From contig NC_019703.1 of assembly GCF_000317045.1 (NCBI RefSeq), positions 3,914,934 to 3,978,933 of the forward strand: a stretch of DNA of 64,000 nt, in the 5' to 3' direction. Source of the stretch: Geitlerinema sp. PCC 7407. Its GTDB lineage: Bacteria > Cyanobacteriota > Cyanobacteriia > PCC-7407. The notes beneath the pieces are model-generated. The model ran no database searches and was not told the origin of the DNA. It was given only the letters and a program-made list of their open reading frames with translations. The position numbers and the translations under genes were made by a program. Of the stretch, positions 26,077-61,679 are shown piece by piece (within the stretch, counting starts at the first letter, position 1; each line of letters begins with the position of its first letter).

Positions 26077-26451
26077 TTATTTATGAAGGTCGCAGGTTAG
26101 TGGGCAAGCAGCGTATACCGACGTGTGCAGCGGATCTGCTTCACCCCGGAGCCACTTGAGCCAGCTCACTTCAGCGGGATGAATGCCGCGCAGCGTTAGC
26201 ACGCCCGCAATCATCATGATCAGCAAAACATTAGCGCCAATCAGTCCGCCCGCAATCAGCAACACAGCGCTCATGGGGATAACGGCTTGCAGGACCATTG
26301 CTAGCAGCGCACCAATCGTCACCATCAAGATGACCACTGGAAAACCAATCACCAAAAAGCAAACCGTGAGCGTGAAAGACCAGAGTAGAAAACTTTTGAT
26401 TGCAACGACGGAATAGGAAGAATGAAGCCCGCGACTTTCATTTAGAGCCAT
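26077..26451 (-). CDS. Small membrane protein of unknown function
   Basis: A 124-residue protein with two or three long hydrophobic helices (about 15-40, 40-60 and 62-88). The soluble C-terminus reads GIHPAEVSWLKWLRGEADPLHTSVYAACPLTCDL. The two cysteines in AACPLTC and the Trp pair could bind a cofactor or metal, but nothing shows this. I recall similar short proteins in other cyanobacteria, none characterised. AAGGAGAG lies about 6 nt before the ATG, and a terminator follows the gene, which supports it as real. Confidence 0.7.
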   Translation of the reverse strand: MALNESRGLHSSYSVVAIKSFLLWSFTLTVCFLVIGFPVVILMVTIGALLAMVLQAVIPMSAVLLIAGGLIGANVLLIMMIAGVLTLRGIHPAEVSWLKWLRGEADPLHTSVYAACPLTCDLHK

Positions 26452-27668
26452 GCCTGTCTCTCCTTGGATGAAGTAGTAATTCAGTTTGGAAAATGCTTTT
26501 ACCTTGAACCAGCAGTTTTGCTTGGTTGTGTCTCAGTATATATAAACATTCAATGAAGCTGATCAATGTTTCAACAAAATTTACAGTGCGATCGCACTTT
26601 TTGAGATTTCAGCTTGGCTGGTTCAAAGATTCTCAAGAGCTCATTAATTCGGAATCATGACGCAAGTCAATAGCACTCAAGGCTTTCAGGGTTAGGAAGC
26701 TTTCATTAAGCCTCAATTGAACCCAGAAGCGGCGATCGCACACCCTGGATGTTTCAAGTTTTGCGCTGGTTTTTTAATACTTCTTAAGGAGACTGCCTCA
26801 ATCTCTCAGAAATCCTTATAGCGCGATCGGATCATTCATAAATTGGTTTATGGCGATCCCCATTGCTTTTTCATTGATTTCAGCTTAAAGATTCCTCAGG
26901 CAAGGTTTCTGGAGCGCTAGAAATCTGAAAGGTACAACCAGTCTTTATACCTACCGCTTCGCCAGCGTTCTTTGCGAAGCAATAGGCTTCAAAACATCTG
27001 AAAAATCGTGGTTTTTAGAATCAGCCAAAAGAGATTCGATTGATTTTGAAGTTAGTTTTTTTGCTTCAGACATTTGAATCGTCTGATTTCAAAAGGCAGC
27101 AATTGATACAAAGCATGGGGAGGCGTCCTGGAGTTTCTGTACACAGCGCGATCGCCTCACTCAAAGTTCTTTTTACGGTCGTAGCACTCTATACCATTTG
27201 CAGATTTCTGATTTGCACAATCTTGAGAGCTCTGTCTACGCACTCTCAAAGCCTTTAGCAGCAAGATCGGCAGAACTTGTTAGAGGTTTCTATCGCTTCA
27301 GGCGGCATTTATGCTGATTGACATTTTTTGTCTTAAACCAGGTCAACTTAAACAGGCAAAAATTTGGCCCTTTAGCATATCAGTTTTTTTGCCTGGGTGA
27401 AATATCGGGCATAGAGACTGAAGGTAGCGATCGCGAGGGCAGTCTTGGTCTAGTTCTGCTGCTTTGCAAACCTTCTCGTCAGGGAAGCACGCCCAGCCCC
27501 TAGTCGAAGCCGACCATCCTCAACAAAATTCGGCTCGGGCAGCCGCAAGCTGATACCCGCCCCTAGGTTTTGGGAATTCTGGAGACAGACCAGTCCAGCG
27601 GGGGCTCTCCAGCCGGTTTGACTGCCCTGGCTTTCAGCGATCGTTCACTTCTCTATATTTTGGTGTCT
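26452..27668. other. 1.2 kb AT-rich spacer, no gene seen
   Basis: The spacer between the divergent small membrane protein gene and pilT is visibly more AT-rich than its surroundings. It contains several HIP1 octamers, for example near 27146 and 27427. Short open frames near 27040-27258 and 27318-27503 lack ribosome sites and protein-like composition. One hairpin, GCTTCGC (26956-26962) with GCGAAGC (26974-26980), is present. It must hold the pilT promoter and may hold a small RNA, but I cannot support one. Confidence 0.5.
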
Positions 27669-29039
27669 ATGACTGACTCACAGCGCCCACCCATCACACC
27701 TCCTCCTAGTGTTCGCGTTCCGCCAGTGCCGCCACCACCGAGAGCGGCAGGGGTACCTACCGCAGCGAATGGCACCACCCAGCGGATGCCCGCAGCGCCA
27801 CCGCCCAGCGCTCAGCCCACCATGGCCGCTCCGCCACCACCCCCCACCGGAATGCAGGGCAACGCTACGGCGACCGCGCCCGTCGCACCACCACCGGCTG
27901 CCGCTGCTGCTGCTGGCCATCGCCCAGTCGCTCCGCCCGCTGCGGGCGCTGCTCGGTCGGCCCCCACTCCCTCAGCGGGCCAGCCAACGCTCCACCAGAT
28001 TGTGCGGCAGGCCTTCGACAAGGGCTTTTCGGACATTCACGCCGGGGTCGGCGAAATCCCGCGCTACCGAAACCGGGGAGAAATCGAAACGACGAACTAC
28101 CCCGTCACGGACGAGGCGACCTTCTATAGCTGGCTGGGCGAAATTCTGCGGGACGATGAGATTCAGCAGTTTCGGGAGACGCTGGACTTTGACGGCGCTG
28201 CTCAGTACGAGTTCTCCCGGGTCCGGGTCAATATCTTCGATTCGCTCCACGGTCCGGCGATGGTGCTGCGACTCATTCCGGTGCGGATTTTGACGATGGA
28301 GGAGCTTAACCTGCCGCCGGTCTTCAAAGATGTCTGTCACTACCACAAGGGCCTGATCTTGGTGACGGGACCGACGGGTTCGGGTAAATCCACGACGATG
28401 GCAGCCATGATTGACTACATCAACAAGGAGATGCCCAAGAACATCATCACCATCGAGGACCCGATCGAATTTATCCATGTCAGCCGCAAGTCGCTGATCA
28501 AGCACCGGGAGGTGGGCATGCACACCCGGAAGTTCCAAAACGCGCTCAAGGCGTCTCTGCGGGAAGATCCGGACATCATCCTAATTGGTGAGATGCGGGA
28601 CCGAGAGACGGTGGAAACGGCGCTCAAGGCGGCGCAAACGGGCCACTTGGTGATGGGAACCCTGCACACCAACAGCGCTGTGAAGACGATCGAGCGGATT
28701 TTGAACTTGTACAACCCGGATGAGCAGGGGCCGATGCGGGTGGCGATCGCCGAGTCTCTGGTCGCGGTGATTGCCCAGGGTCTGTGCCGCACCACCGATG
28801 GCAAGCGCGCGGCTTTCCACGACATCTTGATCAACACCGACGCTATCAAGGACTACATTCGCGAGGGCAAGTACGACGAGATTGCAGCCCTGATGCCCAA
28901 GTGCGGCTTCGACGGCATGTGCACCATGAACCAGTCGCTCTACAAGCTCTACGAAGCGGGCCGCATTACAGAAGAAACGGCACTGGAGATGTCGCCGACC
29001 CCGAATGAAATGGCGCAGTTCCTCCGAGGTCGCGTCTAG
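27669..29039 (+). CDS. pilT: Type IV pilus retraction ATPase, PilT family, with Pro-rich extension
   Basis: A 456-residue secretion ATPase that powers pilus retraction at the cytoplasmic side of the pilus machine. The first 105 residues are Pro/Ala-rich and low in complexity, then the PilT N-terminal domain starts at LHQIVRQAF. Walker A is GPTGSGKS (234-241), the Asp box lies around TIEDPIEF, Walker B is IILIGEMRD (about 303-311), and the His box is GHLVMGTLHTNSA. Typical PilT proteins have about 350-430 residues and no such head. Cyanobacteria often carry two pilT genes, and the sequence alone does not tell me which paralogue this is. The ATG at 27669 begins MTDSQRPPI; the frame is open further upstream. 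Confidence 0.92.
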   Translation: MTDSQRPPITPPPSVRVPPVPPPPRAAGVPTAANGTTQRMPAAPPPSAQPTMAAPPPPPTGMQGNATATAPVAPPPAAAAAAGHRPVAPPAAGAARSAPTPSAGQPTLHQIVRQAFDKGFSDIHAGVGEIPRYRNRGEIETTNYPVTDEATFYSWLGEILRDDEIQQFRETLDFDGAAQYEFSRVRVNIFDSLHGPAMVLRLIPVRILTMEELNLPPVFKDVCHYHKGLILVTGPTGSGKSTTMAAMIDYINKEMPKNIITIEDPIEFIHVSRKSLIKHREVGMHTRKFQNALKASLREDPDIILIGEMRDRETVETALKAAQTGHLVMGTLHTNSAVKTIERILNLYNPDEQGPMRVAIAESLVAVIAQGLCRTTDGKRAAFHDILINTDAIKDYIREGKYDEIAALMPKCGFDGMCTMNQSLYKLYEAGRITEETALEMSPTPNEMAQFLRGRV

Positions 29040-29110: not shown

Positions 29111-29148
29111 GCTTGCCTCGCTAAGATTGTGAGGCAAGCATTGTTTTA
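29111..29148 (+). terminator. Probable terminator after pilT
   Basis: GCTTGCCTC (29111-29119) pairs with GAGGCAAGC (29131-29139), and a T-rich ATTGTTTTATT follows. A smaller hairpin (CGCTTCT/AGAAGCG, 29045-29063) lies just after the pilT stop codon. Together they suggest that the next gene has its own promoter within 29149-29341. Confidence 0.6.
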
Positions 29149-29341: not shown

Positions 29342-30109
29342 GTGTCTCTGCCTTTGATTTACAAAGGCATCGCCCTCTTCACCCCTGGTGGCGATTTGAT
29401 CTACGCCATTGATCCTGAAAAGCAGGATCGGTGGCACCTGCACCTTTGTGCAGCGCTGCAGGAAATCTTGGGCTTGCCTGAACCGCCCCATTTTTTGGTC
29501 CCCTGCTACACCGCCACCGTCGATCGCTGGCGCGATCCGGCCAGCGGACAAATTCAGACTGCCGCCGACGCCTATCCCCTGGTCTTTCGCTATCAGGCGA
29601 TTTTGAACGTCATTTTCCAGAGCGATCCGCTGCCCTGGAAAGTGGTCCGCGTCCCCGAAGAGCTCTGCAACCCGATGGTGCTGGCTTCCTACCGAGCGGC
29701 CTTTCCCCAGCTCTGGGAGTGCCACGACCTGATGATTTGTCTAGGTCGCAACGACAGCCGCGTGCTGTCGTCCTGGAGCGCGGCCCCTTCGGCGATCGCC
29801 CAGCCTTCCCTCAAGGCCGACGAAGCCGAGGGCTACGTGCTGCGGCTGTTTGTCTCCGGCCACGGCGCCAACACAGCGCGCACCCTGCAAAACCTCCACG
29901 AGCTCCTCGAAAAGGCCCTGCCCTATCCCTACACCCTCAAGGTCGTGGACGTCTTCAAGAACCCTGAGCAGGCCGAAGAGGACCAGATTTCGGCGACGCC
30001 GACCCTTTTGCGGGTGTGGCCCCAGCCGGTGCGGCGTCTGGTGGGCGACCTCGACAATCCCGAGCGGATTTTGCAGTTTCTGAACTTTCCCAATCAGTCC
30101 ATCTTGTAA
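29342..30109 (+). CDS. KaiB-like domain protein with N-terminal domain of unknown function
   Basis: A 255-residue protein. Residues 165-250 match KaiB strongly: YVLRLFVSGHGANTARTL, LKVVDVFKNPEQAEEDQISATPTL and RRLVGDL. The first 140 residues (LFTPGGDLIYAIDP, RWHLHLCAALQEILGLPEPPHFLVPCYTATVDRW) form a separate domain that I recognise only as recurring in cyanobacterial KaiB-family proteins. Against the KaiB of this window, the positions matching Gly89 and Asp91, which govern KaiB fold switching, are Phe246 and Asn248. A permanently thioredoxin-like fold, as in the SasA sensor domain, is therefore possible. The start is GTG. It may link the clock to an unknown output. Confidence 0.85.
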   Translation: MSLPLIYKGIALFTPGGDLIYAIDPEKQDRWHLHLCAALQEILGLPEPPHFLVPCYTATVDRWRDPASGQIQTAADAYPLVFRYQAILNVIFQSDPLPWKVVRVPEELCNPMVLASYRAAFPQLWECHDLMICLGRNDSRVLSSWSAAPSAIAQPSLKADEAEGYVLRLFVSGHGANTARTLQNLHELLEKALPYPYTLKVVDVFKNPEQAEEDQISATPTLLRVWPQPVRRLVGDLDNPERILQFLNFPNQSIL

Positions 30110-58725: not shown

Positions 58726-59622
58726 TTGAGTTCTCCCCTCGCAATTTGCACCTTTTTGCCCTCACCCGCCCTAGCCCAGGTTGTCCAAAACCATCTGAGC
58801 AGAGACTCCCATACCCCCAGCATTCATCACACTCCAGACGATCTTCGAGACTTCATCCTGCTCGAAAAGCAGCAAATTGATTGCTTAGTGCTCGAAGATC
58901 GTCCAGAAATTCGCTCCCTGTACGGATGGCTCTACGAAAATGCCATTGTCCTTCCCTGCGTCATCTTCATCACCAAAAACTCCACCAAGAAAGAAAGTCA
59001 CCCCGACGAACCCATCGACTTCCCTTTTCCTCTGACCTCCCTGCCGACCTATCTCTACCACGCCGCCGAGATTCGCATCGGCCTTGACAAGGGCGACCAG
59101 ATCCTCCACTACATCGACCAAGCGATCGGCCAGTTTCTCAAGCTCTCTCCCACCTACCAGGCGTCCGACCTCAACTCCCACGAGCCCACCAACAGCGCAG
59201 TGGCTCCTGTCTTTCTGTCCACCCAGCATCGACTCGCCGAAAAACTCAAAGAGCGATTGGGATATCTCGGTGTGTACTACAAGCGAGACTCGCGATACTT
59301 CCTTCGCCATCTCTCCCTGCAGGAAAAACAAGAACTGCTCGACAAGCTGCGGTTTACCTACCGGGAGATCATCTTGGGCTACTTCTCTCAAGATGACCAA
59401 CTCAATCAAAAAATTGACGAATTCGTAAACCTCGCCTTCTTTTCAGATATTCCTGTTACACAAATCGTCGAAATCCACATGGATCTCATGGACGAATTTT
59501 CTAAGCAGCTAAAATTGGAGGGGCGCAGCGAGGACATCCTACTTGACTATCGCTTGACCCTGATTGATACAATTGCTCACCTGTGCGAGATGTACCGTCG
59601 CTCCATTCCCCGGGAGTCCTAA
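58726..59622 (+). CDS. kaiA: Circadian clock protein KaiA
   Basis: A 298-residue clock protein that stimulates KaiC autophosphorylation by binding its C-terminal tail. Residues 1-130 are the pseudo-receiver domain ([19 protein letters not shown]...[32 protein letters not shown]). The C-terminal dimerisation and KaiC-binding domain is highly conserved: [49 protein letters not shown] and [32 protein letters not shown]. The start is an unusual TTG that aligns with the known KaiA N-terminus; no strong ribosome site is seen. kaiB follows after 73 bp. Confidence 0.95.
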
Positions 59623-59695: not shown

Positions 59696-60010
59696 ATGGG
59701 CTCTCTCAAAAAAACCTATGTTCTGAAACTTTATGTAGCGGGCAATACTCCCAACTCGGTTCGCGCCCTAAAAACCCTCAAGAATATCTTGGAAGAAGAA
59801 TTTCAGGGAGTGTACGCACTGAAAGTGATCGACGTGCTAAAAAATCCCCAGCTCGCCGAAGAAGATAAGATACTTGCGACGCCAACCTTGGCCAAAATTC
59901 TGCCGCCGCCTGTTCGCAAGATCATTGGCGACCTCTCGGATCGAGATAGGGTTTTGATTGGCCTCGATTTACTTTATGAAGAACTACAGGAAGATGAAGC
60001 GGATATCTAA
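59696..60010 (+). CDS. kaiB: Circadian clock protein KaiB
   Basis: A 104-residue clock protein that binds phosphorylated KaiC and sequesters KaiA after switching fold. [79 protein letters not shown] is almost the textbook sequence. Gly89 and Asp91, the residues known to control fold switching, are both present. The acidic C-terminus [10 protein letters not shown] is normal. The frame is open upstream, but the ATG at 59696 matches the family. kaiC lies 109 bp downstream and is probably cotranscribed. Confidence 0.98.
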
Positions 60011-60119: not shown

Positions 60120-61679
60120 ATGAGCGACAGCAATCAGCCGGAGCAACAGAAGGAACCCGTTCGCGTTGGTGTTCAAAAAATTCGTACTCTTATCGAAGGC
60201 TTTGACGACATCAGCCATGGCGGCCTGCCAATCGGACGGACAAGCCTTGTCAGCGGGACTTCCGGCACAGGAAAAACTCTGTTTGCAGTGCAGTTTCTCT
60301 ACAACGGGATCGTGCACTTTGATGAGCCGGGTGTGTTCGTCACCTTTGAAGAATCACCCAGCGATATCATCAAAAACGCCCAGAGTTTTGGCTGGGATTT
60401 GCAGCGCTTAGTCAATGATGGCAAGCTGTTCATTCTGGATGCTTCCCCCGATCCTGAGGGTCAGGATGTGGTGGGCAATTTTGATTTGTCGGCGCTGATT
60501 GAACGCATTCAATATGCGATTCGAAAATACAAAGCAAAACGCGTTTCGATTGACTCGATTACGGCGGTTTTTCAGCAGTATGATGCTGCCTCGGTGGTGC
60601 GCCGAGAAATTTTCCGGCTGGTGGCTCGTCTGAAGCAGATTGGCGCAACTACGGTGATGACAACCGAGCGGATCGAGGAATACGGTCCGGTGGCTCGGTT
60701 TGGGGTGGAAGAGTTTGTCTCGGACAATGTGGTGATCGTGCGCAACGTGCTGGAGGGCGAGCGGCGGCGGCGAACGCTGGAGATCCTCAAGCTGCGCGGC
60801 ACCACCCACATGAAGGGTGAGTTTCCCTTCACGATTACCAATGAGGGAATCAATATCTTCCCGCTGGGGGCGATGCGCCTGACGCAGCGATCGTCGAATG
60901 TCCGCGTCTCGTCGGGCGTGAAGACGATGGACGAGATGTGCGGCGGCGGCTTCTTCAAAGATTCGATTATTTTGGCGACGGGGGCAACGGGTACAGGCAA
61001 GACGCTGCTGGTCAGCAAGTTCTTGGAAAATGCCTGTATCAACGGCGAGAAGGCAATGCTGTTTGCCTATGAGGAGTCACGGGCGCAGCTGTTCCGCAAT
61101 GCCTATTCGTGGGGCATTGATTTTGAGGAGATGGAGCGCAAGGGCCTGCTGAGAATCCTGTGTGCCTATCCGGAGTCAACGGGCCTCGAAGATCACTTGC
61201 AGATCATTAAGACGGAGATTGCCGAGTTTAAGCCGTCGCGGATTGCGATCGACTCGCTGTCGGCGATCGCCCGCGGCGTGAGCAACAACAGCTTCCGGCA
61301 GTTCGTGATCGGGGTGACGGGCTTCGCCAAGCAGGAGGAGATCACGGGCTTCTTCACCAACACGACGGACCAGTTTATGGGGTCCCACTCAATCACGGAC
61401 TCCCATATTTCGACGATCACAGACACGATCTTGATGCTCCAGTACGTGGAGATTCGCGGCGAGATGTCTCGGGCGATCAACGTATTCAAGATGCGCGGAT
61501 CCTGGCACGACAAGGGCATTCGCGAGTACACGATCAGCGAGAAGGGCCCCGAAATCAAGGATTCCTTCCGCAATTTCGAGCGGATTATCAGCGGTTCTCC
61601 CACTCGGGTGTCCGTGGACGAAAAGATGGAGCTCTCACGCATCGTCAAGAACGTCCAGGGCCGCTCCGACGAAGGCTAG
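60120..61679 (+). CDS. kaiC: Circadian clock ATPase/kinase KaiC
   Basis: A 519-residue double-domain RecA-like protein, the core of the circadian oscillator. CI has Walker A GTSGTGKT (46-53) and the catalytic Glu77-Glu78 pair in FVTFEESP. CII has Walker A GATGTGKT (288-295) and Glu318-Glu319. The phosphorylation sites Ser431 and Thr432 lie in DSHISTITDT, with the same numbering as in Synechococcus. The C-terminal A-loop and tail that KaiA grips are present (DEKMELSRIVKNVQGRSDEG). The ATG at 60120 has AGGA 3 nt upstream. All residues needed for a working clock are intact. Confidence 0.99.
   Translation: MSDSNQPEQQKEPVRVGVQKIRTLIEGFDDISHGGLPIGRTSLVSGTSGTGKTLFAVQFLYNGIVHFDEPGVFVTFEESPSDIIKNAQSFGWDLQRLVNDGKLFILDASPDPEGQDVVGNFDLSALIERIQYAIRKYKAKRVSIDSITAVFQQYDAASVVRREIFRLVARLKQIGATTVMTTERIEEYGPVARFGVEEFVSDNVVIVRNVLEGERRRRTLEILKLRGTTHMKGEFPFTITNEGINIFPLGAMRLTQRSSNVRVSSGVKTMDEMCGGGFFKDSIILATGATGTGKTLLVSKFLENACINGEKAMLFAYEESRAQLFRNAYSWGIDFEEMERKGLLRILCAYPESTGLEDHLQIIKTEIAEFKPSRIAIDSLSAIARGVSNNSFRQFVIGVTGFAKQEEITGFFTNTTDQFMGSHSITDSHISTITDTILMLQYVEIRGEMSRAINVFKMRGSWHDKGIREYTISEKGPEIKDSFRNFERIISGSPTRVSVDEKMELSRIVKNVQGRSDEG

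Follow-up and report, generated by a model that had tools for sequence, protein, structure and literature searches.

Introduction

Elongated KaiBs are a described protein family: members are ~250 aa long, occur in cyanobacteria only and carry a conserved N-terminal extension of ~150 aa (Schmelling 2017, PMC5520375). The KaiB domain of the Thermosynechococcus member, KaiB-4 (KaiBTV-4, PDB 8UBH), was predicted and then confirmed by NMR to be fold-switched (Wayment-Steele 2023, PMC10808063), and it is monomeric by SEC-MALS (PMC10808063). Canonical KaiB (KaiB1), in contrast, is a protein of ~100 aa encoded in kaiBC or kaiABC, and its contact with KaiC is formed chiefly between the KaiC B-loop and helix alpha-2 in the switched half of KaiB (PMC6769508, PMC6378743). 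Two further relatives have a thioredoxin-like fold. The sensor domain of SasA (1T4Y, 6X61) is, like KaiB-4, joined to another domain, in this case a histidine kinase to which it is N-terminal. The Legionella pneumophila KaiB Lpp1115 (4KUN), a single-domain, non-cyanobacterial protein with 36% identity to KaiB-4, was crystallised in the thioredoxin-like fold and works in stress responses (PMC10808063); this fold thus does not by itself mark a KaiB as part of a clock.

The second relevant system is the pilus-retraction motor. Many cyanobacteria have a PilT2, which is defined by a proline-rich N-terminus, and the single phenotype reported for it, the inverted phototaxis of a Synechocystis pilT2 mutant, is doubted by reviewers, who find no plausible explanation for it (PMC12288463). 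In Synechococcus elongatus, the timing of competence depends on the phosphorylation state of KaiC (PMC7125226).

Results

KaiB-4 in the window and its family

The window analysed here, a stretch of 64,000 nucleotides from Geitlerinema sp. PCC 7407, contains an open reading frame (29342-30109, forward strand) that starts with GTG and encodes a 255-aa protein, KaiB-4, with orthologues across cyanobacteria. Residues 168-248 match the Pfam KaiB family (PF07689; E 7.2e-27, 93.4 bits against a cut-off of 27), in line with the initial annotation, which had called the C-terminal half KaiB-like. The whole protein scores below the NCBIfam cut-off for canonical KaiB (86 vs 145) and misses that for SasA as well, and the Pfam search revealed no kinase domain. 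A search of a defence-system library matched nothing. In architecture, length and N-terminal extension the protein agrees with the elongated KaiBs, and it is an ordinary orthologue of this published family, from which it differs in no fundamental way, representing only another species. In both sequence and fold, 8UBH is its top PDB match, with ~58% identity between the KaiB domains. In the KaiB tree, 8UBH clusters with the Thermosynechococcus-type genomes G177 and G385, both of which encode the full two-domain KaiB-4 with a PilT gene ~20 nt upstream, a neighbour shared with the window copy.

The gene lies outside the kaiABC locus and behind a pilT gene, as had been noted: kaiA (58726-59622), kaiB (59696-60010) and kaiC (60120-61679) lie at a distance of 29 kb within the window, and the PilT-family gene is directly upstream of kaiB-4. 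The KaiB of this kaiABC is canonical and keeps the Gly/Asp pair discussed below. The genome has its own SasA (C1:4346195). We also observed three more short KaiB-type genes in this genome, two of them adjacent (G000:C1:2323068-2323829, 2215860-2216102), and a second KaiC (C1:2125678).

Full-length KaiB-4 homologues were present at all 80 of the 80 loci retained from the collection scan, and intact copies, one each, in 99 of the 386 genomes of the phylum (window genome included), so that KaiB-4 is not a chance reading frame. All 99 belong to the class of the window genome, and every intact copy in this survey occupies an open frame of at least 240 aa.

A KaiB domain very likely locked in the switched fold

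The KaiB domain (residues 165-248; 29834-30085, forward strand) shares 55% identity over 80 residues with Thermosynechococcus elongatus KaiB, including the docking helix common to both. However, KaiB-4 lacks several canonical features. In both the phmmer and the multiple alignment, F246 and N248 occupy the positions of Gly89 and Asp91 of T. elongatus KaiB, as initially proposed; codons 246-248 (Phe-Leu-Asn; 30077-30085, forward strand) are thus the equivalent of Gly89-Leu90-Asp91. This loss of the fold-switch residues extends through the family: among 120 KaiB-4 homologues, Gly never occurs at position 246 (0/120) and Asp occurs once at 248 (1/120), whereas both residues are present in 30 of 31 short KaiBs taken as a control from the same kind of genomes. 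Twelve SasA domains have neither residue. Furthermore, Pro71 is missing from most KaiB-4 copies, and the KaiB C-terminal tail, from Tyr94 onward, is missing in KaiB-4. SasA forms its own clade in the tree, which places KaiB-4 with KaiB.

We consider it very likely that the KaiB domain here is locked in the switched, thioredoxin-like state, mainly on the strength of the published NMR structure of the orthologous domain (8UBH), which is monomeric and, in agreement with the initial annotation, thioredoxin-like (PMC10808063). The comparison of predicted structures points the same way at lower confidence: the full-length AlphaFold model has a pLDDT of 52, and in this low-confidence model the KaiB part is closer to fold-switched 8UBH, 5JWQ and 5JWO (TM ~0.73) than to ground-state KaiB (TM 0.44-0.53). 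The family and its thioredoxin-like fold had already been published, so the earlier fold argument re-derives a published result; what looks new is the linkage to pilT2, and this is the part worth following.

The equivalent of the KaiC docking helix

The segment KNPEQAEEDQI (residues 206-216; 29957-29989, forward strand) corresponds to the helix with which KaiB contacts the KaiC B-loop, and it ranks with the best-conserved stretches of the KaiB domain: P208 and E212 are present in at least 98.5%, and A211 in 97%, of the 120 homologues. The ATP motif (218-220), including P220, is nearly invariant in KaiB-4. On the other hand, where KaiB has Lys58, the window copy has Gln and 30 of 33 KaiB-4 proteins have Gln or His, and what Asp91 contributes to the KaiB-KaiB contact is missing from KaiB-4. 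In the strand that binds KaiA and CikA, Ala41 is replaced by Thr in 32 of 33. Of the KaiC-contact residues, those of the docking helix are thus kept across homologues and Lys58 is changed. The conserved helix makes binding of KaiC by KaiB-4 plausible, with the Lys58-to-Gln change and the loss of Asp91 pointing the other way. Our search of the literature found no published report of such binding.

The N-terminal domain

Residues 1-137 (29342-29752, forward strand) form a cyanobacteria-specific domain with a conserved KGIALFTPGGDLIY..WHxxLC..PHFLVP motif. It is followed by a linker (residues 138-164; 29753-29833, forward strand) that varies in length among homologues and has a pLDDT of ~30 in the full-length model. 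Residues 1-140 matched no family in Pfam or NCBIfam, in keeping with their initial description as an uncharacterised domain. At each of the 80 loci and in each of the 25 genomes examined for this, the N-terminal domain is part of a protein that also has a KaiB domain. W31, H32, C36 and W125 occur in at least 98.5% of the 120 sequences (H32 in 120/120, C36 in 119/120), and C22, C55 and C109 in 80-91%, the window copy having Ala at position 22.

Modelled alone with AlphaFold2 (79 sequences), the domain reached a pLDDT of 85.5 and a pTM of 0.80, with a predicted beta-beta-alpha-beta-beta-alpha-beta-alpha-beta order (strands 5-13, 19-23, 57-64, 71-77, 99-101 and 131-134; helical segments 31-43, 79-91 and 111-125). 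Foldseek found no match to this model at E <= 0.001 among PDB and viral structures, a profile search against the PDB gave nothing beyond chance, comparison with Pfam and NCBIfam profiles gave no consistent match, and the domain was found in none of the viral contigs searched. A Cofilin/ADF-H fold match (E 0.03, TM 0.29, rmsd 12) and matches to phage-protein folds were discarded as noise, and lone weak Pfam matches to SRX and PapD-like were taken as chance. Because some Nostocales with an elongated KaiB carry a truncated KaiA, we considered whether the domain is a KaiA pseudo-receiver transferred to KaiB. This was rejected on an hhalign probability of 0.04% against the full-length KaiA of the window and on the succession of strands and helices, which differs between the two.

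Linkage of kaiB-4 to pilT2

The gene upstream (27570-29039, forward strand) encodes a PilT/PilU-family ATPase (TIGR01420, 459 bits) with a proline-rich N-terminus, that is, a PilT2; the pilB-linked pilT1 of this genome is elsewhere (G000:C1:465982). We also observed a third PilT-family gene (G000:C1:990301-991320), whose product has a proline-rich N-terminus and is ~53% identical to the kaiB-4-linked PilT2.

Close homologues of pilT2 are present in 94 of the 98 other genomes with an intact KaiB-4, and 89 of the 98 have the gene immediately upstream of kaiB-4 on the same strand, with a median of 115 nt between pilT2 and the KaiB-4 matches. The linkage spans ~50 genera. Of 49 diverse loci, 44 have pilT, whereas the neighbours that rank next in frequency occur at 11, 10 and 8 of them, which argues against general conservation of gene order. 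The gene on the other side of pilT2, which encodes a small conserved membrane protein without a Pfam or NCBIfam match (26077-26451, reverse strand), is divergent from pilT2 at 62 of 80 close loci and at 11 of 49 diverse ones. Our search of the open literature on KaiB with pilT or pili turned up no report of the pairing. Such an almost constant neighbour suggests where the function of KaiB-4 is to be sought, and pilT2, which the initial annotation had used as a landmark only, is the strongest functional lead on this protein.

Between the two genes in the window lies a terminator-like hairpin (29111-29139, forward strand) with a perfect 11-bp stem and a T-rich tail, from a scan whose overall yield was not above the shuffled expectation. 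This hairpin suggests that kaiB-4 is on a separate transcript in this strain.

Genomes in which one partner is missing

Four genomes (G048, G231, G181 and G266) have KaiB-4 and no pilT2. In G048 and G231, which belong to one genus, kaiB-4 is intact at the old locus with the other neighbours in place, and the small membrane-protein gene and kaiB-4 no longer have pilT2 between them. A relative of two pilT2-less genomes, G145 (2.8 Mb), is without pilT2 and has a KaiB-4 broken by frameshifts and stops (L157:7720-8441, reverse strand). The kaiB1 of G145 also appears to be interrupted (G145:C1:535884-536003), and its kaiC and sasA remain. In G195, the gene behind pilT2 encodes a KaiB-4 remnant of 147 aa (L177:2834-3277, reverse strand) in which the KaiB domain is preserved and most of the N-terminal domain is gone. 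Conversely, 58 of 153 genomes with pilT2 have no KaiB-4.

The 99%-complete genome G324 retains intact KaiB-4 and pilT2, and of the clock only remnants of kaiA, kaiC and sasA, kaiB1 being gone (L253:2532-3409, G324:C106:31031-31908; L254:4415-5139, G324:C5:14914-15638). The regions examined contain no masked bases, and no other KaiC match was found in this genome. The KaiB domain of its KaiB-4 is under purifying selection (dN ~0.11-0.13 vs dS >1.6 to relatives), with no clear acceleration compared with relatives. This natural loss of the core clock looks recent: the kaiC remnant has hardly diverged from the intact kaiC of a relative, which makes G324 a weak test of clock dependence. Elsewhere in the survey, what looked like a giant reading frame in the G344 KaiC proved to consist of masked sequence (N) only and was dismissed.

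Discussion

We propose that KaiB-4 is a two-domain adaptor that would work with PilT2, the second motor for pilus retraction; the linkage is observed, and the joint function is what we infer from it. The C-terminal KaiB domain, being without the residues for return to the ground state, would stay thioredoxin-like, as NMR found for the orthologous domain, and the orphan N-terminal domain would be the working end. Judging from its conserved docking helix, the KaiB domain could dock on the CI ring of KaiC once the site used by KaiB and SasA is exposed, and the N-terminal domain might then alter PilT2 activity, so that pilus retraction or phototaxis would be tied to the time of day without a transcriptional step. 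That KaiB-4 is a dedicated PilT2 regulator, and a direct protein-level link of the KaiC oscillator, or of a former clock module, to pilus retraction, is a real possibility that still falls somewhat short of an even chance. The full mechanism, with a permanently switched adaptor on PilT2-driven retraction that docks on KaiC, is offered more tentatively. Several observations stand against the latter: KaiB-4 is kept by G324 without a clock and by four genomes without pilT2, 58 of the 153 pilT2 genomes do without KaiB-4, Lys58 is replaced by Gln, the Asp91 partner is lost, and a hairpin separates the two genes in this strain.

Some of these observations would fit KaiB-4 as a PilT2 partner independent of the clock, with the KaiB domain binding PilT2 or another pilus part instead of KaiC. 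No clock gene comes near pilT2 in strength of linkage, kaiABC being 29 kb distant in this strain; Lys58 is not conserved; G324 keeps both KaiB-4 and pilT2 intact, the KaiB domain under purifying selection, beside remnants of kaiABC and sasA; and Legionella KaiB provides a precedent outside a clock. We regard this reading as somewhat less likely than the full mechanism, given that the KaiC-facing helix is among the best-conserved parts of the domain and that G324 seems to have lost its clock recently. Nearly every sampled KaiB-4 carrier has KaiC1, which also speaks against it, although this is a weak point because almost all members of the class have KaiC1.

The initial annotation suggested that the protein may compete with KaiB or SasA for KaiC; on this reading it would modulate the oscillator or its output through the N-terminal domain, and the pilT2 linkage would be incidental. 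The fold-switched state, the conserved docking helix and the position of KaiB-4 with KaiB rather than SasA in the tree are all consistent with such a competitor. However, a linkage that extends over ~50 genera is hard to call incidental, KaiB-4 survives in the clock-less G324, and the Ala41-to-Thr change affects the KaiA/CikA-binding strand, so that we consider competition for KaiC improbable. Least probable of all is some other role, such as redox or stress sensing through the Cys and His residues of the N-terminal domain, with the ancestral pilT2 order merely kept: C36 and H32 are nearly or fully invariant, C22, C55 and C109 are frequent, and four genomes that lost pilT2 still have KaiB-4, two of them at the old locus, but the remaining neighbours are kept at 11 of 49 loci or fewer, which makes it unlikely that the order was simply retained.

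The reading of KaiB-4 as a PilT2 regulator, if correct, would have been overlooked because work on the gene has dealt with it solely as a variant of the KaiB fold. KaiB-4 served as a landmark test of fold prediction, and the pairing now gives KaiB-4 and PilT2 each a testable partner and turns the purpose of a permanently switched KaiB into a concrete question. If KaiB-4 also binds KaiC, it would represent a form of clock output that works directly on a motor and not via RpaA-driven transcription.
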